This document shows, piece after piece, positions 10,106 through 30,978 of a DNA stretch of 64,000 bases (positions are counted from its first letter, which is position 1; each line of letters starts with the position of its first letter). Source of the stretch: Flavobacterium branchiicola (GTDB lineage: Bacteria; Bacteroidota; Bacteroidia; Flavobacteriales; Flavobacteriaceae). A program made the position numbers and the translations under genes. The stretch is from positions 70,059 to 134,058 of the forward strand of contig NZ_JAGYWA010000007.1 in NCBI RefSeq assembly GCF_018383905.1. The letters run 5' to 3'. The notes under the pieces are model-generated. The model saw only the letters and a list, made by a program, of their open reading frames with translations. It did not search any database and had not been told where the DNA came from.

Positions 10106-11719
10106 TTACTGAATGTCAATATTTACTGGTAAAACACCATTGAAACTATTTTTTTCTAAAAATTGAATTCCTGCAGTTTTTTGAAATTCTTCAAAATCCT
10201 GATACGCCTGAATTAGCCCAAAAGCCTTTTTAAGATTCGGAATAATTGGTAAAACGTATGGATTTCCGAAAACGTAAATAATGCATTTTTTGGTTTGAAG
10301 TAAGTCTGAAAGTAATTCTAAAACTTCATTATTAACTTCAAAATTATTCATTGGTTTTGCTTTTGGAACAAATAATGAAATAATGAGTGTTTCGAAGTTT
10401 TCTAATTCTTTTTTGATAGCAGAAATATCTGAAACTTCTAAATTTTCAAAAGCAAATTCCGGTGAAGGTAATTCGGTATTTAAAGTTTTGAAGAATGTGT
10501 TTTCGGTATTTTTATATAAACTTAGTTTTGCTAAAGTGTTGTTTTTATGCGCTTCTTTAGCTAAATCTGAAATTCCGTTATCAATGATTTTTGTGATACA
10601 ATTTTCAGCGATTTCACGATTTAGTTCAGAAGTTTTTTGGAAATTTAATTCACCTGAGATAAAATCGTCATTTGATAAGATTCCAACTTTTTCTTTCGCT
10701 TTTCTAATTCTTTCATAGCTTTCGAAAATACGATCTGGTGAAGCATTTTTATAAATGGCTTCAATTCCTTCGGGAACATTTTCGGTGAAACACAAAACGT
10801 CGTTTCCAGCGTTGAAAGCTTCCCATTCCAGTTGACCTTTTGTTTCATATAATTTAGAAACGCTGTGCATATTTAAAGCATCAGAAATAACTAAACCGTC
10901 GTAACCTAATTTATCACGTAAAAGATTCTGAATAACCGCTTTTGATAAAGTTGCCGAAGTATCTTTTCCGTCATTTAAATTTGGAACAGCCAAATGTCCA
11001 ATCATAATCGAATCGACATTATTTTCAATTCCTTTAATGAAAGGATATAATTCGTTTTCCATTAATTCTTCCAGAGTTTCCTTTAAAACAGGTAATCCCA
11101 AATGCGAATCAACGTTAGTGTTTCCGTGTCCGGGAAAGTGTTTCAGGCATCCTAGAACGCCAACTTCTGACATTCCGTTTAAATATTCAATCGAAAAATT
11201 GGCTACTTTTTCTTTGTTTTCCCCAAAAGAACGATAACCAATTACAGGATTGTTCGGATTGTTGTTGATGTCTGCCAGAGGCGATAAATTATATTGAATT
11301 CCGGCCGCTTTTAAATCCAAACCAATTTGTTTTCCAACTTCGTAAACTAAACTTGATTTGTTTTCCGGTAAAGCACCAAGCGTAATGGCATAAGGATATT
11401 GCGGTGTTTTTTCGATGCGCATTGCCAAACCCCATTCGGCATCAATACTGATTAAAAGTGGAATAGAAGCGGCTTTTTGATAACGAATAATCAAAGCTTT
11501 GATTTTTTCGTAACTGTCATCGTTAAAAACAACTTTTTTCTTGCTTTCATAATTGGTCGCAGCGCTCGCACGACTATGAAAAAAGGTTAGTCCGCCAATA
11601 TTGTGCTCTCTAATAAGGCGTTCTGTTTCCTGAATGTTTTCTTCGGTATCGTTGATGAAAACAGCTGGGAAGAAAAACTGTCCTATTTTTTGTCTTAATG
11701 CTTCGGCTGTGATTTTCAT
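10106..11719 (-). CDS. nagZ: Glycoside hydrolase family 3, NagZ-like beta-N-acetylglucosaminidase (cytoplasmic)
   Basis: Removes terminal GlcNAc from muropeptides. The N-terminal (beta/alpha)8 domain (residues 1 to about 340) carries the NagZ signature KHFPGHGNTNVDSHLGLP, whose His and Asp form the characteristic catalytic dyad, and the nucleophile Asp in LVISDALNM. GYRSFGENKEKV is also typical. A second alpha/beta domain follows (about 370-537). No signal peptide is visible, so it should act in the cytoplasm, unlike the lipoprotein homologue at 24200. I chose the ATG at 11719, 2 nt after the GNAT stop; a longer frame begins with a non-ATG codon. It is the last gene of the susC-to-nagZ series. 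Confidence 0.88.
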   Translation of the reverse strand: MKITAEALRQKIGQFFFPAVFINDTEENIQETERLIREHNIGGLTFFHSRASAATNYESKKKVVFNDDSYEKIKALIIRYQKAASIPLLISIDAEWGLAMRIEKTPQYPYAITLGALPENKSSLVYEVGKQIGLDLKAAGIQYNLSPLADINNNPNNPVIGYRSFGENKEKVANFSIEYLNGMSEVGVLGCLKHFPGHGNTNVDSHLGLPVLKETLEELMENELYPFIKGIENNVDSIMIGHLAVPNLNDGKDTSATLSKAVIQNLLRDKLGYDGLVISDALNMHSVSKLYETKGQLEWEAFNAGNDVLCFTENVPEGIEAIYKNASPDRIFESYERIRKAKEKVGILSNDDFISGELNFQKTSELNREIAENCITKIIDNGISDLAKEAHKNNTLAKLSLYKNTENTFFKTLNTELPSPEFAFENLEVSDISAIKKELENFETLIISLFVPKAKPMNNFEVNNEVLELLSDLLQTKKCIIYVFGNPYVLPIIPNLKKAFGLIQAYQDFEEFQKTAGIQFLEKNSFNGVLPVNIDIQ

Positions 11720-11721
11720 TA

Positions 11722-12171
11722 TTATAAAGTCTTTTTCATGCAAACGCTATTATCCATTTCCTCGTAAGGCGGATAATTTGGAATGATGGTATAATTTAAT
11801 TTTTGGTATAAGTTGATGGCTTCCGGCTGGTTTTTCCCGGTTTCAAGAATGGTATAAGTATAGCCTACTTCTTTTGCCCAGATTTCAAGTTCCTTTAAAA
11901 CGGCCGATGCAATTCCTTTTTTTCGATGATCGGGATGAACATACATTCTTTTAATCTCTGTTTTGCCTGGTTCTTTTTCGCGAAAAGCGCCACAGCCAAC
12001 AGGAATTCCGTTTTCGTAGTAAACAATTGTATGTTTTATTTTATCGGTTTTATTAAACTGATTATAAAACGCATGATCGTCGCCATCTCTAATTGCTAAA
12101 TCCTTATCTAATAAAACAACTAGATTTATAAAATCAATGTCGTCTGAATTGGTGCGTTTTAAAGTAATCAT
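11722..12171 (-). CDS. GNAT-family N-acetyltransferase
   Basis: 149 residues with the acetyl-CoA-binding core RMYVHPDHRKKGIASAVLKELE (in which HRKKGIA is motif A) and the ETGKNQPEAINLYQKLNY tail of the GNAT fold. The substrate is unknown. It lies between the TPR-like gene (194 nt, palindromic spacer) and nagZ (2 nt), so it is co-transcribed with nagZ. A link to amino-sugar acetylation is possible but only contextual. Confidence 0.85.
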   Translation of the reverse strand: MITLKRTNSDDIDFINLVVLLDKDLAIRDGDDHAFYNQFNKTDKIKHTIVYYENGIPVGCGAFREKEPGKTEIKRMYVHPDHRKKGIASAVLKELEIWAKEVGYTYTILETGKNQPEAINLYQKLNYTIIPNYPPYEEMDNSVCMKKTL

Positions 12172-12201
12172 GTCAATAAAAATTTAGTTATCTTATTTTT
12201 T

Positions 12202-12358
12202 ACCATTAAGGCATTAAGTTCATAAAACTATGACTTAAATTGTTTAATCTATTTGTGGCAAAAGAAAATTAAGCTTAGGGGCACAGTTTTACTTTATTTT
12301 CTCCTTTTCAACAGAAAGTTCATAAAGCTTGGCTTAAATTACTTAATGTCTTAATGGT
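12202..12358. repeat. 18-bp-arm inverted repeat between TPR gene and GNAT
   Basis: Arms ACCATTAAGGCATTAAGT (12202-12219) and ACTTAATGTCTTAATGGT (12341-12358) match at 17 of 18 positions. Inside are two direct copies of a GTTCATAAA..GGCTTAAATT-type word. It separates two same-strand genes and may form an RNA hairpin in the transcript. Confidence 0.7.
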
Positions 12359-12365
12359 GAGAAAA

Positions 12366-12707
12366 TTATTTCAACTTTGCTTTCTTTTGCTTCGCTAATT
12401 GTTTTTTGGTTTCGAGTGCTTTTTCTAATCGGTTTTTAAAACGGAAAAGTTTTGGCAAGCCTTCAATTCTGTCTACAAGAGTAATTTCTTCGTAAACAAT
12501 AATGGCTTTTTCTAAAACGCGAATTTCATTCTCAATATCATTTTGGTTCTTATAGATTGTTGCCAGTCTATCGTAAGGATGATTTCCTTTAAAGCCTTCC
12601 TTGACATTTTCCTCATATAATTCAATTGCTTTTTCAGGATTTCCGGTTTTTTCGAACTCAGCTCCTTTCAGATTGCGTTCGGCTTGCAAATTTTCATTGA
12701 TTTCCAT
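12366..12707 (-). CDS. Small TPR-like protein
   Basis: About 113 residues, basic and helical, with one recognisable tetratricopeptide unit (GAEFEKTGNPEKAIELYEEN) and a second weaker one (DRLATIYKNQNDIENEIRVL). It ends in a lysine-rich tail. I chose the ATG at 12707; the longer frame to 12755 overlaps ampG and uses an unlikely start. It follows ampG by 22 nt. The function is unknown, and a scaffold role is only a guess from the fold. Confidence 0.72.
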   Translation of the reverse strand: MEINENLQAERNLKGAEFEKTGNPEKAIELYEENVKEGFKGNHPYDRLATIYKNQNDIENEIRVLEKAIIVYEEITLVDRIEGLPKLFRFKNRLEKALETKKQLAKQKKAKLK

Positions 12708-12729
12708 AGGTAAAAGTTTGATTTGGGGT

Positions 12730-14052
12730 TTAAACTTCTTCTGATTTCTTCCCAAAATCTTTTGGGAAAGTTAAAAAACGTGATAAAATAAGACCTGGAA
12801 TTGTAGCGATCAAAACCCAAACAAAGAAGTTTTGATAGCCTAAATATTGTTGAATAAAACCGCTCAGCATTCCCGGAAGCATCATTCCCATTGCCATAAA
12901 ACCGGTTGCAAGAGAATAATGTGCGGTCTTTGATTCTCCTTCGGCAACATGAATTAAATACATCATAAAAGCAGTAAAACCAAAACCGTAACCAAATTGT
13001 TCTGCTATAACTACAATAGAAGTATAAAGATTAAGGTTAGAATCGAACTCGAAAAAATATAAGTTTAAATGGAAATGAAAAAATTCTACTGGTTGGAAAT
13101 GCGCCAATCCCACAAATCCAATAATTGGAAGATGCATTGCTAAAAACATTGGAAACATGCATTTAGTAAGGCCATGTTTTGATATGGTAATTCCGGCTAG
13201 AATTCCACCAATAGTTAATGCTGTAATTCCTAATGTTCCATAAATAATCCCTACGTCTTCAGTTTTTAAAGCCATTCCGCCAACACTTTTCGGATCAACT
13301 AAAAATGGATTTAACATTTTTAGTAATTGAGATTCTCCTAAGCGAAAGACAAGAATGAAAGCTAAAATTAATCCGATTTGTTTCTTTTTAAAAAAAGTTG
13401 CAAAGACTTCAGTAAAACTTTTGTGCTCAATAGTATTTTTGTCTAATATGTTATTTTCTTCTGTTTTTGGAGTAGCAAAAAAATTATATACTGTAATGAA
13501 GGTCATTATCAAACCAACGAAAATCATTGTATAAGACCAAGCTTTGGCATTATCATGATATTTGTTCTCTAAATGGCCAGCAAAAAGTACCATAAGACCA
13601 CTTCCGGTAAGTCCTGCTAGTTTGTAAAATGTACTTCTAATACCTAAGAAAAAAGATTGTTCTTCAGGTTTTAATGTTAATAAATAATATCCATCAGTTG
13701 CAACATCATTTGAAGCAGAAGCAAAAGCAGCAATTGTAAATAATGCAAGACTTAAGGTTAGAAAATTATTTAAAGGAATTGTAAATCCAATAACTAAAAA
13801 GATGAGAGAAATTATTATCTGCATCGATAAAAACCATTTTCTTTTGGTACCATGCGCATCGATAAATGGACTCCATAAAGGTTTAACTACCCACGGTAGA
13901 TAAAAAAGACTTGTATAAAAGCCTACAGATTCATTATCAATTCCTAATTTCTTATACATCAAAACCGAAACAGAGATAATTATAGCATACGGTAATCCGG
14001 AAGCGAAATTAAGAAGCGGGATCCAAAACCATGGTTTATTATCTATTTTCAT
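12730..14052 (-). CDS. ampG: AmpG-like MFS muropeptide permease
   Basis: 440-residue inner-membrane transporter with 12 predicted helices, related to AmpG, which imports GlcNAc-anhydroMurNAc-peptides. The hallmark FASGLPYAI in the first helix and the WSPFIDAHGTKRKW loop between helices 2 and 3 fit the family. The first 14 nt overlap the end of the GHL10 gene, so the two are translationally coupled. Its place in a cluster with nagZ, anmK and murQ strongly supports muropeptide import over general MFS transport. Confidence 0.85.
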   Translation of the reverse strand: MKIDNKPWFWIPLLNFASGLPYAIIISVSVLMYKKLGIDNESVGFYTSLFYLPWVVKPLWSPFIDAHGTKRKWFLSMQIIISLIFLVIGFTIPLNNFLTLSLALFTIAAFASASNDVATDGYYLLTLKPEEQSFFLGIRSTFYKLAGLTGSGLMVLFAGHLENKYHDNAKAWSYTMIFVGLIMTFITVYNFFATPKTEENNILDKNTIEHKSFTEVFATFFKKKQIGLILAFILVFRLGESQLLKMLNPFLVDPKSVGGMALKTEDVGIIYGTLGITALTIGGILAGITISKHGLTKCMFPMFLAMHLPIIGFVGLAHFQPVEFFHFHLNLYFFEFDSNLNLYTSIVVIAEQFGYGFGFTAFMMYLIHVAEGESKTAHYSLATGFMAMGMMLPGMLSGFIQQYLGYQNFFVWVLIATIPGLILSRFLTFPKDFGKKSEEV

Positions 14053-15610
14053 TTGGTTGGGCTGGTATATAGTTTTTGAATGGTTTTTTAAGATCTATTG
14101 CAGTTGGTGTACTCTCGTTTGCGTAGTAATCGATAAAAGTTACGGCACAGGCTTTAAATAAGTTTAATTTTCCTCCAGCAACTGAGAATGTAATTTTTCC
14201 GTCAACTTCTTTTACGGTTACTTTCTCCACAATTTTTGTAGCGTCGTTAATGTCAATTTTCGAAACATGATCACCTCCGTAAATAACCATATAACGAACA
14301 TTTGTATTTAGCGGACTTTTAATTGTAAAGGTATATTTAATACTGTCTTTAGAGTATTCCAAAACTTGAGGCGTATCAATAATTACATGTTTTAAGTTTG
14401 GTACCGCTGCAGGAAGAGCAGGATATTTATATTGATTTTCTTCTAAATGACGAACTACATCTAAGTTTTTACCCATGAACCATTTTGAACTGAAATAAGC
14501 ACTTCCGGAAACATTTTTAAAACTTCTGGCAAAATCAATCTGAGTTGGAATTTCATTCATAAAATTCCAGCTTTTATCACCATCACCTCTGATTTTGTAT
14601 GATGCGTGACCAATATAAATAGCGGTGTTATTGGAGTTTTCGGACCACCATTTTACTAATTTTGAATAAGAAGCGCGAGGATTATTCATACTCCAATACA
14701 ATTGAGGTAGGATATAATCGATCCATTTTTGATCCATCCATAAAACCGGATCAGCATATAAATCGTCATAATTTGATGTTGATTGTGTTTCTGAACCTCT
14801 TGGATCTACCGATTTATTACGCCAAACTCCAAAAGGGCTAATTCCGAACTGAACCCAAGGTTTACTGGCTTTAATAGTTGTCGAAATCGTGTGTACAAAA
14901 TTGCTCACATTAGCGCGACGCCAGTCTGAAAGGCTTAAACCTGCTCCGTATTTTTTGAATGAAGCGGTATCGTTAAAACTTTTCCCGGGAACGGTATAAG
15001 GATAGAAATAATCATCAAAATGAATGGCATCGATGTCATATTTATCTACAACTTCTTTTACCACTTTTGTTAAATGTTCCTGAACTTCAGGTAAAGCAGG
15101 ATCGTAATAATATTTTCCGCCATATTCGATCATCCATTCCGGATGTTTGAAAAGATCGTGTCCGGGACTTAAAATGTTTTTATTCAAATCGAAAGTAGCA
15201 CGATAAGGATTTAGCCACGCATGAAACTCAAAACCTCTGGCGTGTGCCTGCTCGATCATCCAGGCTAATGCATCGTAATAAGGGTTTGGAGCCAGGCCTT
15301 CTTTTCCGGTTAAAAAACGGGACCATGGTGCCAAATCTGAAGGATAAATAGCGTCTCCGACACTTCTAACCTGAACAATTACGGCATTGTAATTTAATTT
15401 TTTATAAGCTTCTAAAATTTCCAAATAATCAGCTTTTTCTTTTTCTACATTATCAACACTTGTTTTTGGCCAGTCGATATTGACAACGGTGGCAATCCAG
15501 ACCCCTCTAAATTCATTTTTTGGGTGCATTGTGTTTTCCTGCGCTTTGGCTAGTACAGGAAAGAAAAGAATATATAGGATTGAGAATATTAGATACTGAC
15601 TTTTATGCAT
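14039..15610 (-). CDS. Exported glycosyl hydrolase-like 10 (GHL10/YngK) protein
   Basis: 523 residues with a signal peptide (MHKSQYLIFSILYILFFPV, then AKAQ cleavage). The (beta/alpha)8 domain of the GHL10 family (Pfam PF02638, formerly DUF187) spans residues about 35-350: RGVWIATVVNIDWP, NAVIVQVRSVGDAIYPS, FEFHAWLNPYRA, IDAIHFDDYFYP and WMDQKWIDYILPQLYWS. A beta-rich C-terminal domain follows (about 400-510). The family is thought to hydrolyse glycans but the exact substrate is not settled; the cluster suggests peptidoglycan or its amino sugars. It overlaps ampG by 14 nt. Confidence 0.85.
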   Translation of the reverse strand: MHKSQYLIFSILYILFFPVLAKAQENTMHPKNEFRGVWIATVVNIDWPKTSVDNVEKEKADYLEILEAYKKLNYNAVIVQVRSVGDAIYPSDLAPWSRFLTGKEGLAPNPYYDALAWMIEQAHARGFEFHAWLNPYRATFDLNKNILSPGHDLFKHPEWMIEYGGKYYYDPALPEVQEHLTKVVKEVVDKYDIDAIHFDDYFYPYTVPGKSFNDTASFKKYGAGLSLSDWRRANVSNFVHTISTTIKASKPWVQFGISPFGVWRNKSVDPRGSETQSTSNYDDLYADPVLWMDQKWIDYILPQLYWSMNNPRASYSKLVKWWSENSNNTAIYIGHASYKIRGDGDKSWNFMNEIPTQIDFARSFKNVSGSAYFSSKWFMGKNLDVVRHLEENQYKYPALPAAVPNLKHVIIDTPQVLEYSKDSIKYTFTIKSPLNTNVRYMVIYGGDHVSKIDINDATKIVEKVTVKEVDGKITFSVAGGKLNLFKACAVTFIDYYANESTPTAIDLKKPFKNYIPAQPNENR

Positions 15611-15704
15611 TTCAATGTTTTTTAACAGAAACCAAAAATAGTTTTTTTAGATGATTATAAGAAATTTAAATTTTACAATAATAATTATGGTTTTCCTTAA
15701 GAAT

Positions 15705-16976
15705 TTAGACTTTAAAAATCATTTTCTTTTTATAAAAATACCACAGTACGCAACTCCATAATGCTATATAAATTATAGAATAGGTGAGGGATGAAAGCAG
15801 CTGATTTTCAAAAAGCGGACTAATCCAAAAATTGTAAGCATAATCCCTAACGTTGATTGTGTCTGATATATTTTGAGGATCCTGAATTTTAATCATCGTT
15901 AATGCACGTGGCAAAATTCCGGAAACAAAGAATACAATCATTGGGTTTACTCCCCAGGTAAGTAAAAAGGTTGTCCATTTTTTGTATCCTAAAACATCAA
16001 TTATATAATATATTACAGAAAGCAATAATAAAGCCAAACCTGCTGTAAACAAAACATAAGAACTGGTCCAGATGGATTTATTTATAGGGAAAACTAAAGC
16101 CCATAATAAACCCAAAAGAATCAATATCAAACTTATGCCGGCCATTATTTTATTGATTTTTATTTTTGGTATTGGCTGAATTAATAGCTGACCAATTAAT
16201 AAACCTATTAAACCGTTTCCTATTACGGGTAATGTACTTAGTAAACCTTCCGGATCCCAGGTTTTGGTTTCGATGTACATGTGGTTTTCAAGTAAAACAC
16301 TGTCAAGCCATGATGCAAAATTGGTTCCAACTTCCAAATTTGGATGCCCTATACCAGGAACAGGAATCAGTGTCATTATTGCCCAATATCCCAATAAAAT
16401 AGAAGCAGCTAAAATGGCCTGCGTTTTTATATTGGTTTTTAAATAGATAATCGAAACAAAAAAGTAAACAATACCAATTCTTTGTAGAACGCCTAACAAT
16501 CTTATTTTGGCAAAATTTTCATATCCGCTGTAGGCTAAACCAATCAGAATTATAAAAATTGTAACGGCTAAAATGGTTTTTGTTTTGGGTTTAAAATCAC
16601 CAATTAAGGCATAACCAACTAAAAAAGTGAAAAATAAGCGAATGCATAAAAGGAGAATTCCGGATTGTAAACCCATGAAATGAATCGAATAAAAATAGCT
16701 TAGAAATAATCCTAAGCAAAAGATACGCAACGATCGGGTAATAATTTTAGTAACGTTTTCGGCATTGTCTTTTTTAATTGGCATTGCCAAAGGAACGGCA
16801 ATTCCGACAATGAAAATGAAAAACGGAAACACTAAATCGGCTAAAGTGCAACCATTCCATTTTGCGTGATCTAATATCGGATAGACATAGCTCCAGCTTC
16901 CGGGATTGTTTACTAATGTCATTAATAAGACGGTAAGTCCTCTTAATACATCGACTGAAATTATACGATCTTTCAT
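15705..16976 (-). CDS. NagX-like heparan-alpha-glucosaminide N-acetyltransferase family membrane protein (COG4299/DUF5009)
   Basis: About 423 residues with 10 or more membrane helices. The N-terminal DVLRGLTVLLMTLVNNPGSW and DLVFPFFIFIVG segments are typical; the conserved acidic and His residues of the human HGSNAT family lie in the same region (DHAKWNGCTLADLVFP). The family transfers acetyl from acetyl-CoA to amino sugars across the membrane or acts as an amino-sugar permease. I chose the ATG at 16976; the frame extends to 17093 with a GTG start, but that extension lies in repeat sequence. It is likely part of the salvage cluster. Confidence 0.82.
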   Translation of the reverse strand: MKDRIISVDVLRGLTVLLMTLVNNPGSWSYVYPILDHAKWNGCTLADLVFPFFIFIVGIAVPLAMPIKKDNAENVTKIITRSLRIFCLGLFLSYFYSIHFMGLQSGILLLCIRLFFTFLVGYALIGDFKPKTKTILAVTIFIILIGLAYSGYENFAKIRLLGVLQRIGIVYFFVSIIYLKTNIKTQAILAASILLGYWAIMTLIPVPGIGHPNLEVGTNFASWLDSVLLENHMYIETKTWDPEGLLSTLPVIGNGLIGLLIGQLLIQPIPKIKINKIMAGISLILILLGLLWALVFPINKSIWTSSYVLFTAGLALLLLSVIYYIIDVLGYKKWTTFLLTWGVNPMIVFFVSGILPRALTMIKIQDPQNISDTINVRDYAYNFWISPLFENQLLSSLTYSIIYIALWSCVLWYFYKKKMIFKV

Positions 16977-17036: not shown

Positions 17037-17195
17037 TAATTTCTTTAACACATAGTGACATAGATTTTGTAAGCTAAAATATAGGCGTTTCACTTGTTTA
17101 AATAAACATAGTTTAAGCTATGTGAAAGAAATATATTTCTTTTTTAGCACTCTTTTTTAAATAAAAATCTATGTTTCTATGTGTTTGTTTTTTGA
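17037..17195. repeat. ACACATAG/GGCGTTTCAC intergenic palindrome, copy A
   Basis: Outer words TTAACACATAGTGACATAG (left) and CTATGTTTCTATGTGTT (right) are inverted copies, with the marker GGCGTTTCACTTG in the middle. Related copies are at 18474-18662, 24040-24180 and 29650-29772. It fills the spacer between anmK and the nagX-like gene. Confidence 0.75.
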
Positions 17196-17221: not shown

Positions 17222-18427
17222 CTAATCCGGCATGGAAATTTTTCCCATTGTAATGGATGGAATTTTTTGTGATCCGAAATTAAAATCTCCTCCGGCTACT
17301 GTTTCATTGGCTAAAATGGCAAATAACACGGCTTCTTTGGCATCACTTGAAATTCCTAAATCATCACTTTTATAAAACTGGTAAGGCAGTAATTCTTTCA
17401 GCCAGCTTACGATTAAAGGATTATTTGTGCCTCCGCCGGACATATAGATTTTAAAATCTTCAATTGAGGCTGAGGTATTTTTTACGGCATATTGAATGGC
17501 TTCTGCTATGGTTTCAGCTGTAAAACGGGATAATGTGGCTAATAAATCCGGAGCAGAAATGGTTTCAATTTTGCTTTTTTTCAAAGCAGCCTCTACATAT
17601 TCGGCACCAAAAAGTTCCGGTCCGATTGTTTTTGGAAATTCCTGCTGAAAAAAAGAATTGTCTTTTAGATTGTTTAATAGAATCGGATTTACTGTTCCTT
17701 GTTTGGCAATTTCAGCATCTTTATCATAGCTTTTTTCGGGGAAATAATGCTTTACAAAAAGATCAATTAAAGTATTTCCGGTTCCGGTATCGGTTACAAA
17801 AGTTTCATCGGCATTTAATGAAGCGGGTAAAAAGGTAAAATTAGCAATCCCCCCCATATTAAGCATAATTCGGTTTTCGCCTTTTTTTCCGAATAAAAAA
17901 TAATCGCCATAAACAGCCAATGGAGCCCCTTCGCCACCAGCTGCAATATGTTTTTGCCTGAAATCGGATAATGTTATAATTCCGGTTTTAACTGCAATAT
18001 GATCACCATCGCCAATTTGTAAAGTAGCATTTGGAAATTTTTCCAGCTGATGCAAAAACTTCGGAGCGTGTAAAACCGTTTGTCCGTGTGATGCAATTAA
18101 ATCGATTGAATCAGAAGTGATATTCCATTTTTTTAAACTCGTATTAATCATTTCGGCATGCAGCAAACCGATCCATTCGTTTAGGACAACCAGATGTTGG
18201 AAATCAATTTCTTTTTTGGCGAATACTTTACGAATTTCAGTTTTAATTTCTTCGGAATAATCAATGGTTTCAAACTGAATGATTTTTACTTCGGTATTTT
18301 CTCCGGATCCTGAAATTTCGCATAAAGCAATATCAAGTCCATCCAGAGATGTGCCAGACATTAATCCAATAATTCTTCGGGTTTCTTTTTGCGCAATTTG
18401 ATAAAGTGCGGTGATATTCTTGTTCAT
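17222..18427 (-). CDS. anmK: Anhydro-N-acetylmuramic acid kinase
   Basis: Opens the 1,6-anhydro ring of anhydroMurNAc and phosphorylates it to MurNAc-6-phosphate, the substrate of MurQ. The 401-residue protein has the ATP-binding GLMSGTSLDGLDIALCEI at residues 22-39, LIASHGQTVLHAP with the His-Gly-Gln motif, GDGDHIAVKTGI, and FVTDTGTGNTLIDL, all typical of AnmK. murQ is encoded 10 kb upstream in the same region. The gene is flanked by palindromic repeats on both sides (copies A and B). Confidence 0.95.
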   Translation of the reverse strand: MNKNITALYQIAQKETRRIIGLMSGTSLDGLDIALCEISGSGENTEVKIIQFETIDYSEEIKTEIRKVFAKKEIDFQHLVVLNEWIGLLHAEMINTSLKKWNITSDSIDLIASHGQTVLHAPKFLHQLEKFPNATLQIGDGDHIAVKTGIITLSDFRQKHIAAGGEGAPLAVYGDYFLFGKKGENRIMLNMGGIANFTFLPASLNADETFVTDTGTGNTLIDLFVKHYFPEKSYDKDAEIAKQGTVNPILLNNLKDNSFFQQEFPKTIGPELFGAEYVEAALKKSKIETISAPDLLATLSRFTAETIAEAIQYAVKNTSASIEDFKIYMSGGGTNNPLIVSWLKELLPYQFYKSDDLGISSDAKEAVLFAILANETVAGGDFNFGSQKIPSITMGKISMPD

Positions 18428-23163: not shown

Positions 23164-23181
23164 AATGCATAATAACGCATT
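23164..23181. promoter_or_regulatory. Candidate DeoR-family operator, site 1
   Basis: AATGCATAATAACGCATT is an inverted repeat of AATGCAT/A(C/T)GCATT with a 4-nt spacer. It differs at one base from the site upstream of namZ (31110-31127). It lies 93 nt upstream of susC and 110 nt upstream of the regulator gene, where it could control both. Confidence 0.55.
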
Positions 23182-23290: not shown

Positions 23291-24040
23291 ATGCTAAAAA
23301 AAGAAAGACATCAATTTATACTGGGTAAATTTAATAATGTAGAAAAAATCAATACTATTGATTTGGCTTTAGAACTTAATATTTCTGAAGATACTATACG
23401 CAGGGATTTTAATGAATTACACAATAAAGGACTTATTGATAAAGTATACGGAGGTGCTTTTCTTGTAAAAGACAAGTCTAAAAATGTATTTGATATTACG
23501 ATTATTAATGAAGATAAAAAAATGGCTGTAGGCAAAAAAGCCTTGTCATTTCTTAGTGAAGGTCAGGTCATTATTATGAGTGGTGGTACTACCAATTTGT
23601 CTTTTTGCAAACTCATTCCAATAGATTTTACCGCCACAATATATACTTATAGTCTACCAATCGCCATGCAATTGTCTCAACATCCCAATATCGAGTTGAT
23701 TTTTATTGGCGGAAAACTGCAAAAAAAGGCGATGGTTACTATTGGTATAGATGTAGTTCAGGTTTTGTCTAAAATTAAGGCCGATGTTTGCTTTCTTGGC
23801 GTGAGTAGTCTGGATGTAAATCAAGGATTAACAGAAATGGGTTATGAAGTTTCGGTGATTAAAAAAGAAATGATAAACGCTTCAAATAAAATAATTGTTT
23901 TAGCAACTTCAGATAAAATAAATGGTACCATGCCGCATAAAGTCTGTGGTCTTGATAAAATTGATGCCATTGTTACGGAATTAAATCCTAAAAGCCCTAA
24001 AATCAAAAAGTTTGTTGATAGCGGTGCGAAAATGTTTTAA
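23291..24040 (+). CDS. DeoR/GlpR-family transcriptional regulator
   Basis: 249 residues. The N-terminal winged helix is of DeoR type (residues about 1-60: RHQFILGKFNNVEKINTIDL, SEDTIRRDFNELHNKGLIDKVYGGA). The C-terminal DeoRC sugar-phosphate sensor (about 75-235) has GQVIIMSGGTTNLSFC, IELIFIGGKL and a conserved Lys/Asp pattern. Members usually repress sugar genes and are released by phosphorylated sugars. It is the only plus-strand gene within the 10-31 kb muropeptide region, divergent from susC. The likely inducer is MurNAc-6-phosphate or GlcNAc-6-phosphate (inference from the neighbouring AnmK and MurQ). Confidence 0.9.
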   Translation: MLKKERHQFILGKFNNVEKINTIDLALELNISEDTIRRDFNELHNKGLIDKVYGGAFLVKDKSKNVFDITIINEDKKMAVGKKALSFLSEGQVIIMSGGTTNLSFCKLIPIDFTATIYTYSLPIAMQLSQHPNIELIFIGGKLQKKAMVTIGIDVVQVLSKIKADVCFLGVSSLDVNQGLTEMGYEVSVIKKEMINASNKIIVLATSDKINGTMPHKVCGLDKIDAIVTELNPKSPKIKKFVDSGAKMF

Positions 24041-24180
24041 CACATAGAAACATAGTTTTTTGTTTGAAAAAACAGGGACAGATTATTATAAAAATCCAGA
24101 GTTTTACACATAGCTATGTTTGTTAATGCGAGTGAAACGCCTTATTCTGAGTTTAAATAATCTATGTCTCTATGTGTTAG
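24040..24180. repeat. ACACATAG/GGCGTTTCAC intergenic palindrome, copy C (inverted)
   Basis: Outer words AACACATAGAAACATAG and CTATGTCTCTATGTGTT; the central marker is present as GTGAAACGCC, so this copy is inverted compared with A, B and D. It lies between the convergent ends of the regulator gene and the NagZ/AmiE-like gene and could act as a two-way terminator. Confidence 0.75.
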
Positions 24181-24199
24181 AATATTTGCTTAGCAACCA

Positions 24200-27199
24200 T
24201 TATTTAATGATAGACTCATAAATAATCTTCTGAATATCCTCGCGAATTTTTTCTTTCGCCAGTTTATTTCCTTCTTCACCAACTTCCGGATAGGTTCTGT
24301 TAGATAAAAACACGTAAACCGTTTCATTTGCCGGATCAACCCAGGCCATATCTCCCGTAAAACCCGTATGCCCAAAACTCGAAGCCGAAGTACATTGGCA
24401 AGTCGGACCATCTTTTCCTAATCTTTTGTCAAAACCTAAACCGCGTTCAACTCCTTGTGCACAATAAAAACAAGTGTTGAAGGTGTCAAATGTAGCCTCA
24501 GAAAAATAACGTTCGCCTCCATAACTTCCTTTTTGCAGAAAAAGCTGCATCATTTTAGCGACATCCAGAGCGTTCGAGAAAATTCCGGCGTGACCTGCAA
24601 CTCCGCCCTCCATAGCCGCAGCCATATCATGTACGTAACCCTGAATAAGCTGATGTCTGAAATACGTATCAATTTCAGTAGGAGCAATAACATTTCGATC
24701 AAATTTCAATAACGGATTGTAGGTTGTATAATTCATTCCGATAGAATTGAAAAAGTTTTCCTGACTTAAATCTTCCAATTTTTGATGCGTCATTCTTTCC
24801 AGATATTCCTTCAAAATAATAAAAGTAAAATCGCTGTATTTGTATTCTTTTTTGGTTGCAACAGGCGAGTCAGCAATAAATTTCATGATGGTATCATGAT
24901 AATCATTTCGAATAAAAAGACTGTCGGTAACTTTGGTAGTAAAATTTTTCTCCTGAATTTTTCGGTAATATTTTTCAAGCGGAAAACCTTTGGCATCTAT
25001 AGTCGATTTATAAAACGGACTCCACGCAATTAAGCCCGCATAATGATTTAGTAACTCCTTAAACGAAATGTCTTTTTTGTTTGATTTTGCAAACAACGGC
25101 AGCATCGTTCCCAGTTTTGTATCTAGCGTAACTTTGTTTTTATCGTACAATTGCATCACGTTTGGAAGCGTAGAAATCATTTTAGAAATCGAAGCCACAT
25201 CATACAAATCGGTATTTGAAACTTTTACATCATTAGTATAAGTATGATATCCGTATGATTTCTGAAAAACAACATTTCCTTTTCGGGCAACCAGAACCTG
25301 CATTCCCGGAGCCATTTTTCCATCGATTGCTTTTTGGGCAATGGCATCTATTTTAGAAAGAATGGCTGAATTCATTCCAACATTTTCAGGTGTTTCAAAA
25401 CCTAAACGATCTATTTTTTCAGTAATTAAACCGTCGTTTACTTTAAAACTATCATTAATCGAAACCGGCAATTTTCCTTTGGCATCTTTTGCTCCAAATA
25501 AAATCTCGGCAGAAACAATCTGAGAAATAGGAGCGTTTTGATATGAAACAACTAATCCTTCTATAGCATCAAAATTTTGAATAGAAAGCAATGAATACGG
25601 CTTTGCAAAAACATCCAGAATTACTTTGTTGTTTTCGGCTATTTTGTTGAGGCAAAACAATTCATTGGAATTAAAATCCTGTTTTTCCCAAGCTTTATTT
25701 ACTTTATGATAACTCACAATTACCAAATCGTATTTCTTTAATTCTGCGTTTAAAGAATCAATATTGGTATTCGAAACTTCTGTAATGTTGGTATACTTTT
25801 TTAAAGTGGAAACAAAATCACTGTTTACATCTTCTCCCAGTTTTACATACGCGATTTTCTGATTCAGATTTTTGATCGGAAGAATGTCTTTTTCATTTTT
25901 TAAAACCGTAACCGCATTTTCATACAAAGTATATTGTAGTGCATCTTTCTCCGGGCTGTTTAAATCTTGTTTTAAATTTTGAAGATCAATTGGTTTGTAT
26001 TTATTTAAACCAGCTTTAAATTTATAATGAAGAATTTTTTTAACCGAATGCGCCAGACGTTCTTCTGTAATTTCTCCATTGGTATAAAAAGTTTTTAGTT
26101 TTTCCAGAGCAAGCGGAACGTCATCCGGACAAAGGAAAATATCATTTCCAGCTTGTAAAACCGCCAGTTCAAGATCGCCAACGCCTTTAAAATTACTTGC
26201 GCCTTTCATTCCTAAACCATCCGTAAAAATCAATCCGTCAAAGCCCAATTGTTTTTGAAGCAATTCTGTTACAATCGCATAAGAAGCAGAAGACGGTATA
26301 TTTTCGCGGGATTCTAAACTCGGAATATTCAAATGCGCGACCATGACAGAAGCTAAACCTTCATCAAAAAGTTGTTTGTAAGGATATAATTCCACTTCAT
26401 CAATATGTTCTTTGGTCGAAGAAACCGTAGGAAGTGTTTTGTGTGAATCTGCTGAGGTTTCACCATGTCCTGGAAAATGTTTTCCGGTACATAAAACGCC
26501 CTGACTCTGAATTCCTTTCATGATTGCCGCCGCTCTGTTGGCAACATTTGTTTTGCTTTCGCCAAAAGAACGATTGCCAATAATAGGATTTAGCGGATTG
26601 GTATTAATGTCGAGAACAGGAGCAAAGTTAAAATGGATTCCCATTCTTTTGCATTCGCTTCCCATATTTCGTCCTACTTTTTCAATTAAATCTAAATTCT
26701 GAATTGCGCCCAAAGTCATATTCCATGGATAAGCGTAAGTAGAATCTAAACGCATGCTTAATCCCCATTCGGCATCAAGACCAATAAACAACGGAACTTT
26801 TGCTTTTGCCTGATATTCGTTGGTTAATTTCGCCTGACGAACCGGTCCGCCTTGAAAGAATATTACGCCGCCCACTTTATAATTGGACACTAAATCTTTT
26901 ATTTTATTTACATGAACAGAATCTTTATTAGAATAGGCCGAAACAAAAAACAACTGTCCTAATTTTTCATCCAGTGTCATTTTGCTGTAAATGCTATCTG
27001 TCCAGCGGTTTTCGGCATCACAATCTTTAACAAAAGGTTTCTTTTCTAATTTGTTTTTTGGTGTGTAAACTTCTTTGTTTTGAGTAGAAACAGGCTGGTT
27101 TTTTACCACAACAGTTTTGTTTTTTTTAGAAACACCACAATTGATGATAAAAAAAAGCATAACTGCAAACAATCCTGTTTTTATAAGGGCATTTTTCAT
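24200..27199 (-). CDS. Exported fusion of a GH3 NagZ-like hexosaminidase and an AmiE-like serine hydrolase
   Basis: About 999 residues. The N-terminus is a lipoprotein signal (MKNALIKTGLFAVMLFFIIN then Cys). Residues about 70-400 are a GH3 NagZ domain with KHFPGHGETSADSHKTLP and nucleophile Asp in LIFTDGLGM. A GH3 C-terminal alpha/beta domain follows (about 430-605). Residues about 630-995 form a beta-lactamase-fold serine hydrolase: VASISK gives the SxxK catalytic pair near 676-679, YSD replaces the Tyr-x-Asn motif, and FGHTGFTGD is the third motif. In Bacillus subtilis NagZ and the beta-lactamase-like amidase AmiE are separate neighbours acting in sequence on GlcNAc-MurNAc-peptide, so this fusion probably joins both steps. 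I chose the ATG at 27199; the longer frame begins with TTG. Confidence 0.87.
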   Translation of the reverse strand: MKNALIKTGLFAVMLFFIINCGVSKKNKTVVVKNQPVSTQNKEVYTPKNKLEKKPFVKDCDAENRWTDSIYSKMTLDEKLGQLFFVSAYSNKDSVHVNKIKDLVSNYKVGGVIFFQGGPVRQAKLTNEYQAKAKVPLFIGLDAEWGLSMRLDSTYAYPWNMTLGAIQNLDLIEKVGRNMGSECKRMGIHFNFAPVLDINTNPLNPIIGNRSFGESKTNVANRAAAIMKGIQSQGVLCTGKHFPGHGETSADSHKTLPTVSSTKEHIDEVELYPYKQLFDEGLASVMVAHLNIPSLESRENIPSSASYAIVTELLQKQLGFDGLIFTDGLGMKGASNFKGVGDLELAVLQAGNDIFLCPDDVPLALEKLKTFYTNGEITEERLAHSVKKILHYKFKAGLNKYKPIDLQNLKQDLNSPEKDALQYTLYENAVTVLKNEKDILPIKNLNQKIAYVKLGEDVNSDFVSTLKKYTNITEVSNTNIDSLNAELKKYDLVIVSYHKVNKAWEKQDFNSNELFCLNKIAENNKVILDVFAKPYSLLSIQNFDAIEGLVVSYQNAPISQIVSAEILFGAKDAKGKLPVSINDSFKVNDGLITEKIDRLGFETPENVGMNSAILSKIDAIAQKAIDGKMAPGMQVLVARKGNVVFQKSYGYHTYTNDVKVSNTDLYDVASISKMISTLPNVMQLYDKNKVTLDTKLGTMLPLFAKSNKKDISFKELLNHYAGLIAWSPFYKSTIDAKGFPLEKYYRKIQEKNFTTKVTDSLFIRNDYHDTIMKFIADSPVATKKEYKYSDFTFIILKEYLERMTHQKLEDLSQENFFNSIGMNYTTYNPLLKFDRNVIAPTEIDTYFRHQLIQGYVHDMAAAMEGGVAGHAGIFSNALDVAKMMQLFLQKGSYGGERYFSEATFDTFNTCFYCAQGVERGLGFDKRLGKDGPTCQCTSASSFGHTGFTGDMAWVDPANETVYVFLSNRTYPEVGEEGNKLAKEKIREDIQKIIYESIIK

Positions 27200-27217
27200 G
27201 AAATAGCTTTTGAGCAA

Positions 27218-28723
27218 TTAAAAAGAGATTCGTTCGCTGGAACGTTTGCTTGTAAAATAAATTCCGATATAAGTAAATAATCCGTTGATGATGATTAATT
27301 CATTATCAAAAGTATAACCGAATAATTGTGCCGAATATTCACTTAAAAAATAAGTCAGAATTGGAGAAATGATGCAGATTAACGGAATCAGATTGTCGTT
27401 TACTAGTCGCGATTTTTGTAATAATCCAAATGCATATAATCCTAATAATGGACCATAAGTATACGATGCTGCCCTGAAAATTAAAGCTACTACCGAGGCA
27501 TCATTAAATGAATTCAGAATAATAATCACTACGAAAAGTAATATTGAAAACCCAAAATGAACCCAGTGTCTTTTGGTTACATTGCTTTTGTTGTCTTGGT
27601 TTTCAGATTTATCCATTCCGAGAAAATCGACGCAAAAAGAGGTTGTTAAAGCCGTTAAGGCTGAATCTGTAGTGGCAAAAGTAGCGGCGATAATTCCTAA
27701 AAGGAAAACAAATGCCGGAACAATAGACAAATGATTTAAGGCAATTTCAGGAAAAAGTAAATCGGTTCTTGGTTTATTTGTCGCTGTATCTAAAGGAATT
27801 GAAACCCCATTTTTTTCGGCATAGATGTATAATAAAGCACCCAAGCTTAAAAAGATAATGTTGATTACAACAAAAATCCCCGTAAAAGTGAACATATTTT
27901 TTTGTGCTTCGCCGATGTTTTTGCAGCTCAGGTTTTTTTGCATTAAATCCTGATCCAGTCCAACCATTGCAATGGTAACAAACATTCCTCCTAAAATTTG
28001 TTTTACAAAATGATATTTGCTGGTGAAGAAATCATCAAAGAAAAAGATTTTAGAATATTGGCTTTTCTGAATGGTTGAAACCGACTCAAGAACAGTTAAA
28101 TTTAAACTGTCACAAACAAAATAAATAGTGATAAATACAGAACTTACTAAAAAGAAGGTTTGTAAAGTGTCTGTTATAATTATAGTTTTTAAACCGCTTC
28201 TAAACGTGTATAAGAAAATCAGCATCAGAGCCAAAAGTACTGTAACGGGAAACGGAATGTGAAAATCGTTGAAAACGTAACGCTGTAAAACAATCACAAC
28301 CAAATACAATCTAAATGCCGAACTCACCGTTCTGCTTACTAAAAATATAGAAGCGGCAGTTTTATAACTTTTAACTCCCATTCGTTGTTCGATATAACTG
28401 TAAATCGAGGTCAGATTCATTCTGTAATAGAGTGGAAGCAGGACTTTTGCAATGATGATAAAGCCTATTGCATTTCCTAAAACAAACTGAAAATACTTGA
28501 ATTGTTCTCCGTTTGGCGAACCTACTTCACCCGGAACCGAAATAAAAGTTACTCCGGAAAGCGCAGTTCCAATCATACCAAAAGCAACTAAATACCATTT
28601 AGAATTTTTATTTGCTTTAAAGAAAGAATCATTGTCTTGTCCTTTTTTACTAATTACATTAGAAATTAAAAGTAGAAGACCAAAATATACAAATATGAAA
28701 ATTAGAATTGTGGTTGATGACAT
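27218..28723 (-). CDS. Sodium:solute symporter (SSS family)
   Basis: 501-residue inner-membrane transporter with about 13 helices, of the SSS/SLC5 fold. It starts with a helix (TTILIFIFVYFGLLLLISNV) and contains the sodium-site region SGVTFISVPGEVGSP and the later AATFATTDSALTALTTSF segment with small residues typical of the Na2 site. It lies between murQ (24 nt) and the NagZ/AmiE-like gene (which follows after 18 nt), so an amino-sugar cargo such as MurNAc, GlcNAc or anhydroMurNAc is likely. No PTS component is visible. Confidence 0.88.
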   Translation of the reverse strand: MSSTTILIFIFVYFGLLLLISNVISKKGQDNDSFFKANKNSKWYLVAFGMIGTALSGVTFISVPGEVGSPNGEQFKYFQFVLGNAIGFIIIAKVLLPLYYRMNLTSIYSYIEQRMGVKSYKTAASIFLVSRTVSSAFRLYLVVIVLQRYVFNDFHIPFPVTVLLALMLIFLYTFRSGLKTIIITDTLQTFFLVSSVFITIYFVCDSLNLTVLESVSTIQKSQYSKIFFFDDFFTSKYHFVKQILGGMFVTIAMVGLDQDLMQKNLSCKNIGEAQKNMFTFTGIFVVINIIFLSLGALLYIYAEKNGVSIPLDTATNKPRTDLLFPEIALNHLSIVPAFVFLLGIIAATFATTDSALTALTTSFCVDFLGMDKSENQDNKSNVTKRHWVHFGFSILLFVVIIILNSFNDASVVALIFRAASYTYGPLLGLYAFGLLQKSRLVNDNLIPLICIISPILTYFLSEYSAQLFGYTFDNELIIINGLFTYIGIYFTSKRSSERISF

Positions 28724-28747
28724 TTGGCTGAGATTTAAAAATTTAGT

Positions 28748-29569
28748 TTATTTTTTGCTGTTGTGATCTAATAATACGGCGCGTACACTTTTATGTTTTT
28801 GCAGTAATTCTTCGGCGATTTCATATTCAATTCCAAGTTCCTCCATAATCATTTTGATGCCGCGTTTTACCAGTTTTTCGTTAGACAATTGCATGTCTAC
28901 CATTTTGTTTCCTTTTACTTTTCCGAGTTTAATCATTACAGAAGTCGAAATCATGTTCAAAGTCAGTTTTTGAGCAGTTCCGGCTTTCATTCTCGTACTT
29001 CCGGTTAGGAATTCCGGACCAACAATTAGCTCAATCGGATGATCTGCTTCCTGCGCTATAAGTCCGTTGCTAATGCAGGAAATACTTCCTGTTTTTATGT
29101 TGTGTTCTTTCGCTTTTTTCAAAGCGCCCAAAACATAAGGCGTATTTCCTGAAGCTGCAATTCCGATAATAAAATCCAGACTTGAAATCTCAAATTTAGC
29201 TAAATCTTTCCAGGCTTGTTCCGTGTCGTCTTCAGCATTTTCAACTGCTTTTCTAATCGCTGTGTCACCGCCGGCAATAATCCCGATAATCATATCATGC
29301 GGAACACCAAAAGTTGGCGGACATTCTGATGCATCCAAAATCCCAATACGTCCCGAAGTTCCGGCTCCAATATAAAATAATCTTCCGCCCAGTTGCATTT
29401 TTTTTACGATTGCTTTTACCAGTTTTTCAATTTTCGGAATCTGTTGTTCGATAATATCCGGTACTTTTTTATCTTCTGTATTAATGTTGGTGAGGAGTTC
29501 TTTCACACTCATTTGATCCAAGTCTTTGTATAAAGACTCTTGTTCAGTTTCAGGATTTTTATTATTCAT
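28748..29569 (-). CDS. murQ: N-acetylmuramic acid 6-phosphate etherase
   Basis: Cleaves the lactyl ether of MurNAc-6-phosphate to give GlcNAc-6-phosphate and D-lactate. 273 residues, a single SIS domain. Diagnostic stretches are GRLFYIGAGTSGRIGILDAS, ECPPTFGVPHDMIIGIIAGG (with the catalytic Glu), AVENAEDD, and GIAASGNTPYVLGAL; LTGSTRMKAGTAQK closes the site. It is the first gene of murQ-symporter-NagZ/AmiE and follows namZ after a palindromic spacer. Confidence 0.95.
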   Translation of the reverse strand: MNNKNPETEQESLYKDLDQMSVKELLTNINTEDKKVPDIIEQQIPKIEKLVKAIVKKMQLGGRLFYIGAGTSGRIGILDASECPPTFGVPHDMIIGIIAGGDTAIRKAVENAEDDTEQAWKDLAKFEISSLDFIIGIAASGNTPYVLGALKKAKEHNIKTGSISCISNGLIAQEADHPIELIVGPEFLTGSTRMKAGTAQKLTLNMISTSVMIKLGKVKGNKMVDMQLSNEKLVKRGIKMIMEELGIEYEIAEELLQKHKSVRAVLLDHNSKK

Positions 29570-29649
29570 TTTTCTTTTTTTTGTGGATTTTTAAAACCGA
29601 TATTTTTTTGATTAAATGCTGTTGATCTTTTTTATGGGGTAATCTTTAA

Positions 29650-29772
29650 CCCGTTGGGTGCAATTAAAAAAAAACTTTTTTAACACATAGTAACATAGTT
29701 TTTTTGTCTATAAAAAGGCGTTTCACTTGCATTAACAAACATAGCTATGTGTTAAAAATAATTGCACCCAAC
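29650..29772. repeat. ACACATAG/GGCGTTTCAC intergenic palindrome, copy D
   Basis: Outer arms GTTGGGTGCAATT and AATTGCACCCAAC are a perfect 13-bp inverted pair; the inner layer is TTAACACATAGTAACATAG against CTATGTGTTAA, with GGCGTTTCACTTGCATTAA in between. It lies between murQ and namZ on the same strand. Confidence 0.8.
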
Positions 29773-29781
29773 ATATTTTAT

Positions 29782-30978
29782 TTAATAAATCAGATACGCT
29801 TTTCGCATACTATTAAAAGCGTCTAAATCTTTTTTCCAGCTATCGCGAATGGCTTTTTCTGAAACTCCCGATTCTATTTGCTGCTGTAGTTTTTTTGTTC
29901 CTGCCAGTTTGGTAAAAAAGGGAATGAAAAATTTAGATTTATCACTCGTATTTTGATACGCTTTTAATAACCAATGCAATTCAAACTGCGTTACTTTTGA
30001 AGCCGCAGAAAGATCTTCTCCATAACATTCCTGTCCGTTATAAACAGGATCTTTTGCACCAAAATTTGGTTTCGGCGTAAAAGAAAAACTTCCTTTAGTT
30101 AAAAAAGGAGAACCATAAATTTGAAATTGTTTTTCAGTTCCACGTCCAACGCTCACATTTGTTCCTTCAAACAAACATAAACTTGCATATAGATTAATTG
30201 CCTGATCGTTCGGGAGATTGGGTGAAGGTTTTACAGGGAGACTGTACGGCATGTCTCTTTTGTAATTAGAACAAGGAATTACAGTCAATTTGCATTGTAT
30301 ACCGTTTTTAAGCCATTTTTGACCATTAATCATTTGACCATATTCACCAATTGTCATTCCGTGTAAAATTGGAATTGGGTGCATGCCCACAAAACTTGTA
30401 AACTCTTTTTCCAGCAAAGGCCCGTCAACAATACTTCCGTTTGGATTTGGACGATCTAAAATAATGAGTGGAATATTATTTTCTGCGCAAGCTTCCATCA
30501 CATAATGCAAAGACGAAATATAGGTATAGAATCTCGCGCCAACATCCTGCAAATCGAAAACCATAATATCAATTCCGGTTAATTGTTCTTTTTTAGGCTT
30601 TCTGTTGTCTCCATAAAGCGAAACAATTGAAAGTCCGGTTTTGGCATCTTTTCCATCTACGACATGTTCGCCCGCATCGGCAGTTCCTCTAAATCCGTGT
30701 TCCGGTGCAAAAATGGTATGAATGCTAATTTTTTTCTCCAGTAAAAAATCTACCAAATGTGTTTTATTAGATAGAATGCTCGTTTGATTGGTGACAACAC
30801 CTACTTTTTTGCCTTTTAATAAAGGAATATATTTCTCGAAATTATCAGCTCCTGTTTTGATTTCGCTACTGATACTGTTGGTTTTATTTTCGCTGATTTT
30901 TACAGAACAACCCGCATTGGACAGATTGCAAATAGTCAAAAATAAAATAAAAGCGATTTTTTTAAAGGATTGAAACAT
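29782..30978 (-). CDS. namZ: NamZ-like exo-beta-N-acetylmuramidase (DUF1343)
   Basis: 398 residues. The N-terminus is a signal ending in a probable lipobox (FLTICNLSNAGC). The conserved DUF1343 blocks are present: KVGVVTNQTS, IFAPEHGFRGTADAGE, VSLYGDNRKP, IMVFDLQDVGARFYTYISSL, ILDRPNPNG, and FVGMHPIPILHGMTIGE. In Bacillus subtilis this family (NamZ, GH171) releases terminal MurNAc from the non-reducing end of peptidoglycan fragments. It leads murQ-symporter-NagZ/AmiE, the same functional set found around namZ in Bacillus. The candidate operator lies 132 nt upstream. Confidence 0.92.
   Translation of the reverse strand: MFQSFKKIAFILFLTICNLSNAGCSVKISENKTNSISSEIKTGADNFEKYIPLLKGKKVGVVTNQTSILSNKTHLVDFLLEKKISIHTIFAPEHGFRGTADAGEHVVDGKDAKTGLSIVSLYGDNRKPKKEQLTGIDIMVFDLQDVGARFYTYISSLHYVMEACAENNIPLIILDRPNPNGSIVDGPLLEKEFTSFVGMHPIPILHGMTIGEYGQMINGQKWLKNGIQCKLTVIPCSNYKRDMPYSLPVKPSPNLPNDQAINLYASLCLFEGTNVSVGRGTEKQFQIYGSPFLTKGSFSFTPKPNFGAKDPVYNGQECYGEDLSAASKVTQFELHWLLKAYQNTSDKSKFFIPFFTKLAGTKKLQQQIESGVSEKAIRDSWKKDLDAFNSMRKAYLIY

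Follow-up and report, generated by a model that had tools for sequence, protein, structure and literature searches.

A probable DeoR-controlled locus for peptidoglycan utilisation, with exchangeable SusC/SusD pairs, in Flavobacterium branchiicola

The nearest characterised relative of the system considered here is the ampG-ybbC-murTKQ operon of Tannerella forsythia (Tanf_08345-08385). The step at issue is the entry of peptidoglycan fragments through the outer membrane of scavenging Bacteroidota: for T. forsythia the text available describes MurT and AmpG at the inner membrane and names no outer-membrane importer, and none for peptidoglycan is named in the available parts of two further papers (PMC13209645, PMC13204101). 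For a Urechidicola symbiont (Flavobacteriaceae), a 27-kb locus is described as consisting mostly of murein genes, its substrate being left open, and two of the four SusCD pairs are among the 50 most transcribed genes, with their link to the murein locus unstated in the text available (PMC10199937). We analysed a 64,000-nucleotide stretch of the 5.43-Mb genome of Flavobacterium branchiicola (referred to as the window), in which a SusC/SusD pair lies among genes for muropeptide salvage. Glycan-active enzymes and a DeoR-family regulator are linked at this locus, and a common repeat stands ahead of both of its gene runs. Our reading, to which we assign a probability of roughly 0.8, is that two operons under DeoR control together form a locus for peptidoglycan utilisation; from the genes and their arrangement we infer its substrate, the location of each step, the direction of flow, the operon boundaries, the binding of DeoR, its effector and the sign of regulation.

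The original prediction had placed a peptidoglycan-salvage locus of the polysaccharide-utilisation type at 10106-30978. Searches with Pfam and NCBIfam profiles found all of its named genes intact within the window, with families and coordinates as given (Table 1), although the starts listed for the NagX-like, GH3 and TPR genes are probably too early because of the lengths of their relatives in genome G124 (423, 537 and 113 residues, respectively); a NagX start at 16976 agrees with the 423-residue relatives. What had been described as a single region is indeed linked, but consists of two runs on the minus strand with a common repeat, the copy on the NamZ side lying outside the predicted interval. 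The first run, NamZ-MurQ-SSF-NagZ/AmiE, extends from 30978 to 24200 with gaps of 0-212 bp. The second, from 23071 to 10106, has the order SusC-SusD-AnmK-NagX-like-GHL10-AmpG-like-TPR-GNAT-GH3, its widest gap being the 288 bp between SusD and AnmK. On account of this spacing, each run is taken to form one operon. DeoR is encoded on the plus strand between the two runs, divergently from SusC and convergently with NagZ-AmiE.

The gene order is maintained in relatives. Matches to the regulator at E <= 1e-50 were present in 50 of 249 Flavobacterium genomes, and we compared 51 DeoR loci (49 stretches, counted without the window and genome G176, together with L129 and L130) that contain 53 DeoR genes. 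A divergent SusC stands beside all 53, and a salvage gene (MurQ, NamZ, AnmK, GHL10, AmpG or NagZ-AmiE) lies downstream of 49, with MurQ found for 45, NamZ for 34 and AnmK for 23. The remaining four DeoR genes are located in L146, L164 (a second copy) and L165 (two), of which L146 and L165 are short stretches. A comparison of gene order in other Flavobacteria had been proposed as a check on the prediction; because the order is kept, the linkage at the locus is not due to chance. As a separate observation, 22 of the 51 DeoR loci contain a gene for NagB fused to a PIG-L deacetylase-like domain (L130:8359-10347), a protein that might combine the deacetylation and deamination of N-acetylglucosamine (GlcNAc) 6-phosphate. 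An 89% identical relative is found elsewhere in the window genome (L185). The exact repeat was not found upstream of the two NagB-PIG-L relatives in that genome; when two mismatches were allowed, one relative had no site and the other a single site approximately 870 bp upstream.

The repeat is a 16-bp direct repeat, TGCRTT-N4-TGCRTT, that was first spotted in the aligned DeoR-SusC gaps of relatives. The window contains exactly two exact copies against 0.05 expected, two being a count attained in 0 of 100 shuffles; both are on the minus strand, one ahead of each gene run. Among the 53 DeoR genes, 48 have an exact copy at most 330 bp upstream and the other five have a copy with one mismatch. The DeoR loci contain 110 exact copies: 51 between DeoR and SusC, 28 just 3' of DeoR, 30 inside the deoR frame and one in NamZ. 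A separate scan, which took in neither L001, L002 nor L063-L068, yielded 24 copies, 18 of them upstream of SusC (in 16 loci), four in match-selected loci and two others. These positions suggest that DeoR binds TGCRTT-N4-TGCRTT. The 30 copies within deoR (L129-L179) occupy fixed places, 24 of them at the identical base, and possibly reflect either coding conservation or an extra operator. The four exact matches elsewhere in the genome were rejected as operators, being located in or at the edge of open reading frames (ORFs); judged by eye, one is at the edge of a response regulator and the others belong to a triosephosphate isomerase, a secreted protein of 799 residues and an ORF of 2476 residues. 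Scans for promoters and terminators found simple patterns to be no commoner than in shuffles.

The part of the locus that varies is the importer. SusC proteins adjacent to DeoR fall into three types with 24, 16 and 13 members, these types being best-hit labels under which L146 (42%) and L170 (33%) may represent further types. Comparison of three reference loci gave identities of about 24-39% for the main BLAST segments of the SusCs and 61-82% for the DeoRs, with no significant BLAST match among the three SusDs; each of these loci has the exact repeat. SusC/SusD is thus an exchangeable front end placed before a conserved regulator, repeat and set of salvage genes. The window, G176 and G216 carry SusC1-SusD1, and G186 carries SusC3-SusD3; the closest named relatives of the window SusD are from Flavobacterium and are 78-92% identical. 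In G124, a single run after DeoR begins SusC2-SusD2-lipoprotein-NamZ-MurQ-SSF-NagZ/AmiE and continues AnmK-NagX-GHL10-AmpG-TPR-GNAT-GH3.

The window itself appears to have lost a second pair. Its nearest relative found by DeoR (99%), genome G818, has the order repeat-SusC2-SusD2-lipoprotein-NamZ-MurQ-SSF-NagZ/AmiE, followed by DeoR and then by SusC1-SusD1-AnmK onward; compared with the G124 counterparts, its SusC2 is 92%, its SusD2 88% and its lipoprotein 82% identical. The window aligns to G818 (L180) at 3152-3248 (82%) and then from 8992 onward, so that 5743 bp of G818 with SusC2, SusD2 and the lipoprotein are missing from the window, and the leftover promoter region with its repeat now precedes NamZ. 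Since SusC/SusD-NamZ is the usual arrangement, we judge a loss in the window likelier than a gain in G818. No close relative of SusD2 was found elsewhere in the window genome (best 27% identity). We propose tentatively, and at slightly less than an even chance, a modular regulon that retains a single regulator, operator and catabolic set while unrelated SusC/SusD pairs are swapped, each suited to a different peptidoglycan fragment. Species would thereby choose which walls of dead or dividing neighbours they can use, and the window strain would recently have gone from two importers to a single one.

A different origin of the fragments has to be considered in light of loci that contain the enzymes without the importer. 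The AnmK type of the window (E under 1e-80) is present in 14 Flavobacterium genomes. In ten loci (L109-L118) from genomes chosen for having this AnmK type without a strong SusD1 match, AnmK-GHL10-AmpG-GH3 adjoins a Prx gene in 10 of 10, with no SusC in the stretch; G124, one of these, has a SusC just beyond it. TPR and/or GNAT is kept with the four genes in eight of the ten, which argues against the suggestion that these two genes are random hitch-hikers. In nine of the 14 genomes the stretch around AnmK-GHL10-AmpG-GH3 lacks a SusC, and the SusC/SusD part is accessory, DeoR being found in only one fifth or so of the genomes searched, as would suit a role in recycling the cell's own wall, with SusC/SusD recapturing fragments shed by the cell itself and not taken from other bacteria. 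We consider this unlikely, though deserving of weight. The other five of the 14 genomes have a SusC/SusD pair nearby, and an accessory, exchangeable import front, surface lipoproteins and a catabolic MurQ resemble nutrient uptake; recycling would have no need of such a front.

Linkage of the importer with salvage genes extends to other genera. At E <= 1e-20, 21 of the 296 genomes searched in the phylum contain a member of the SusD family (alignment A1). Within Flavobacterium it lies within approximately 10 kb of AnmK, MurQ, NamZ, GHL10, AmpG or NagZ-AmiE in 17 of 19 loci; outside Flavobacterium a salvage gene is near SusD in 20 of 40 non-duplicate loci (AnmK in 15, MurQ in 4, NamZ in 3), and loci of weaker SusD-like matches have a salvage neighbour in 0 of 13. 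These counts left out L091, which has the same SusD as L031, and L107, which has no SusD ORF match, and contig ends truncate several stretches (L025, for example, spans 4 kb). The orders found elsewhere are AnmK-SusC-SusD in Pedobacter, SusC-SusD-NamZ in three genera and SusC-SusD-SSF-MurQ in one. In the taxonomic family, NamZ is near universal (208/219), so only physical linkage counts. Two stretches, L019 and L020, contain orphan SusC/SusD copies, with SusDs 84-85% identical to that of the window and no salvage genes found, and these speak for the view that SusC/SusD merely sits beside salvage genes by chance. We find that view barely credible, given the common repeat and regulator, the order kept in many genomes and the other linkages in other genera; moreover, neither a DeoR match nor the exact repeat was found in the stretches of the two orphans. 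The muramic-specific NamZ, MurQ, AnmK and AmiE domain share repeat and regulator with SusC/SusD, and elsewhere in Bacteroidota these genes are linked in different arrangements, both of which uphold the predicted reading of a polysaccharide-utilisation-type locus for peptidoglycan.

Table 1. Features of the locus and its surroundings in the window, with the evidence for each.
Feature	Position	Strand	Evidence
NamZ exo-N-acetylmuramidase, exported	29782..30978	-	PF07075, PF20732; closest solved chain 4jja, E 3e-111
MurQ, MurNAc-6P etherase	28748..29569	-	TIGR00274
SSF sodium symporter	27218..28723	-	PF00474; TIGR00813 below cut-off
NagZ-AmiE fusion (GH3 + serine beta-lactamase-like domain), probable lipoprotein	24200..27217	-	PF00933, PF01915, PF00144
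DeoR-family regulator	23291..24040	+	PF00455, PF08220
SusC, TonB-dependent outer-membrane transporter	20009..23071	-	TIGR04056
SusD, probable surface lipoprotein	18716..19993	-	PF14322 just under cut-off; model and Foldseek
AnmK, anhydro-MurNAc kinase	17222..18427	-	PF03702, NF007149
NagX-like membrane acetyltransferase	15705..16976	-	NF046061 below cut-off; listed ORF extends to 17093
GHL10 enzyme, putative Cwp19 lytic transglycosylase relative	14039..15610	-	PF02638, 5oq2
AmpG-like muropeptide permease	12730..14052	-	TIGR00901 E 1e-54, below cut-off
TPR protein	12366..12755	-	weak TPR matches
GNAT acetyltransferase	11722..12171	-	PF00583
Cytoplasmic GH3 (NagZ-like)	10106..11743	-	PF00933; signal peptide none seen
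Operator-like direct repeat TGCATT-N4-TGCATT upstream of NamZ	31110..31125	-	exact match
Operator-like direct repeat TGCGTT-N4-TGCATT upstream of SusC	23164..23179	-	exact match; conserved in relatives
Promoter region left from SusC2-type operon	31037..31146	-	alignment to G818; deletion junction 31037-31047
Palindromic copies with CACATAGAAACATAG ends	17044-17185, 18503-18647, 24041-24182, about 29645-29789		

The protein families allow a pathway to be proposed. SusC (TIGR04056, 620 bits against a cut-off of 368) and SusD would bring peptidoglycan fragments across the outer membrane. SusD is divergent, scoring 26.6 bits with SusD-like_3 (PF14322) against a cut-off of 27, but its predicted model (pLDDT, a per-residue confidence score, of 88.6) matches SusD-fold chains in Foldseek with a best E of 3e-11, consistent with a SusD fold. 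Its lipobox Cys 18 is followed by acidic residues, the rule for surface lipoproteins. In the periplasm, GHL10, for which a signal peptide was recognised by eye, would cut glycan chains to leave anhydro-N-acetylmuramic acid (anhydro-MurNAc) ends. This enzyme (PF02638, 259 bits; 5oq2, Cwp19, E 1e-103) is related to Cwp19 and thereby a putative lytic transglycosylase; E. coli DigH is presumably also a GHL10 protein. Cwp19 is a lytic transglycosylase producing anhydro-MurNAc ends (PMC6016235), and DigH is reported to hydrolyse denuded glycans (PMC12288456).

Also in the periplasm, NamZ and the NagZ-AmiE fusion would remove MurNAc, GlcNAc and peptide. Both domain models of NamZ (NamZ_N and NamZ_C) score over the Pfam cut-off, and its signal ends with a Cys, yet does not match the simple lipobox pattern. 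The 1005-residue fusion has a lipobox Cys 27 with no acidic residues after it, and an SxxK motif in its second domain (SISK at 676-679). Both GH3 proteins keep the Asp/His dyad and the nucleophile Asp in an alignment with 3bmx, the roles of these residues being those that we take to hold for B. subtilis NagZ. By the AmpG route, GlcNAc-anhydro-MurNAc would pass inward to be split by the cytoplasmic GH3 and phosphorylated by AnmK to MurNAc 6-phosphate (MurNAc-6P). By the SSF route, free MurNAc would be imported by the symporter, probably a MurNAc importer that is MurT-like by role, and would receive its phosphate from a MurK-like kinase whose gene lies elsewhere. MurQ (TIGR00274, 322 bits against a cut-off of 302) would then convert MurNAc-6P to GlcNAc-6P for central metabolism. 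AnmK is the sole AnmK match in the genome (NF007149, 672 bits against a cut-off of 616), and no signal peptide was seen in the N-terminal sequences of AnmK, MurQ or the second GH3. DeoR would bind the repeat before both operons and sense a sugar phosphate of the pathway.

Several observations weigh against peptidoglycan as the substrate, against individual steps of the pathway or against extending the claim. Within the stretches compared, 20 of the 40 loci from other genera and 2 of the 19 from Flavobacterium (L019, L020) show no salvage neighbour, so that SusC/SusD there may serve another or wider substrate, and the 20 loci in other genera limit any claim for the SusD family as a whole. Genome-wide co-occurrence of SusD and AnmK was dropped as support since AnmK is near universal (16/16 loci; 189/246 genomes). 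The repeat has six exact matches genome-wide against two for a reversed control pattern, so that single copies can be chance. The many SusD-fold chains matched by Foldseek include none indicating a ligand. The AmpG-like MFS permease scores 186 bits with TIGR00901, below the cut-off of 350, and is AmpG-like by similarity and context only; the NagX-like protein scores 167 bits with NF046061 against a cut-off of 480. A MurNAc kinase was not among the locus genes scanned by Pfam. The candidate for a MurK/K1058-like enzyme is a 283-residue protein at C39:607287, elsewhere in the genome, which reaches 22.8 bits against a Pfam cut-off of 31.5 and matches 8ow9 ('Putative novel MurNAc kinase'), 8oqk and 8ow7 at E 4e-36 or better; we take the latter two to be MurK.

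The NagX-like and GH3 genes are equally compatible with the use of chitin or GlcNAc, and raise the alternative of a wider amino-sugar locus in which the muramic genes play a secondary part and the cargo of SusC/SusD is GlcNAc or chitin oligomers. The same direction is indicated by the NagB-PIG-L genes in DeoR loci and by the half of the loci in other genera that have SusC/SusD without salvage neighbours. We know of no use of NamZ, MurQ, AnmK or the AmiE domain in chitin breakdown, no chitinase or other hexosaminidase family was found among the locus genes scanned, and the repeat precedes NamZ itself. A GH18 gene is listed in the similar Urechidicola locus, a further point for chitin in the text available (PMC10199937). 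Overall we regard the amino-sugar explanation as quite improbable, and retain peptidoglycan as the probable substrate.

Other repeats were noted alongside. A palindromic element of approximately 140 bp with CACATAGAAACATAG ends occurs four times in the window, each time within or next to a gap of the locus, and the genome has 54 exact end motifs; G818 is without most of the SusD-AnmK stretch that holds one of the copies. A tandem array at 31826-32625, with a 370-bp unit and inverted repeats around TTTCGACGAAGGAGAAATC, lies upstream of the NamZ operon beside a DUF6896 gene. At 40181-40572, flanked by genes for an amino-acid permease and for a GH57/CBM26 protein bearing a secretion tail, there are 2.1 copies of a 182-bp unit.

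Comparison with known systems places the locus among salvage pathways of several kinds. In what follows, we take T. forsythia ybbC to be NamZ and GH171 to be the family of NamZ. Muropeptide rescue by NamZ-NagZ-AmiE-MurQ in Bacillus subtilis uses identical enzyme families, and the NagZ catalytic residues are kept here; unlike in that Gram-positive bacterium, where import is by phosphotransferase, NagZ and AmiE are one protein in the window and uptake would be by SusC/SusD, AmpG and SSF. The inner-membrane and cytoplasmic steps match AmpG-NagZ-AnmK-MurQ recycling in E. coli by family; to our knowledge, that pathway serves the cell's own wall, with neither an outer-membrane importer dedicated to it nor a DeoR gene linked to it. 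A fusion of NagZ with a beta-lactamase has been characterised in Rhodothermus (RmNag3) and is discussed as an enzyme of peptidoglycan turnover; no SusC/SusD is tied to it in the text available (PMC6987092). The scavenging of peptidoglycan in T. forsythia draws on AmpG, ybbC, a sodium symporter (MurT) and MurQ (PMC5388701, PMC7670621, PMC5790795), all of which have counterparts here. As far as the available text goes, the T. forsythia operon holds a xanthan lyase, two glycosyltransferases, lytB and murK, is controlled by GppX, includes no SusC or SusD, and has no AnmK predicted; the Flavobacterium locus adds SusC/SusD, AnmK, GHL10, the NagZ-AmiE fusion and DeoR, and is without the murK of the MurTKQ operon.

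The Urechidicola locus, compared by gene content as described, has in common SusCD (two pairs there), deoR, a sodium co-transporter, murQ, ampG, GH3 and GH171, and also lists nagB and GH10; AnmK, NagX and a NagZ-AmiE fusion are unlisted, and ampD, dacA, an epimerase and nhaC are listed, in an account whose available text gives no operator, pair exchange or substrate test (PMC10199937). Among the matches listed from the open literature, subscription papers and preprints apart, we recognised no further locus of this type. This kind of locus is therefore already in print, and what is added here is a shared operator-like repeat, three importer pairs that replace one another and the probable loss of one pair. 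With three SusC/SusD candidates, a defined operator-like repeat and natural gain/loss variants, the question of the outer-membrane importer becomes testable.

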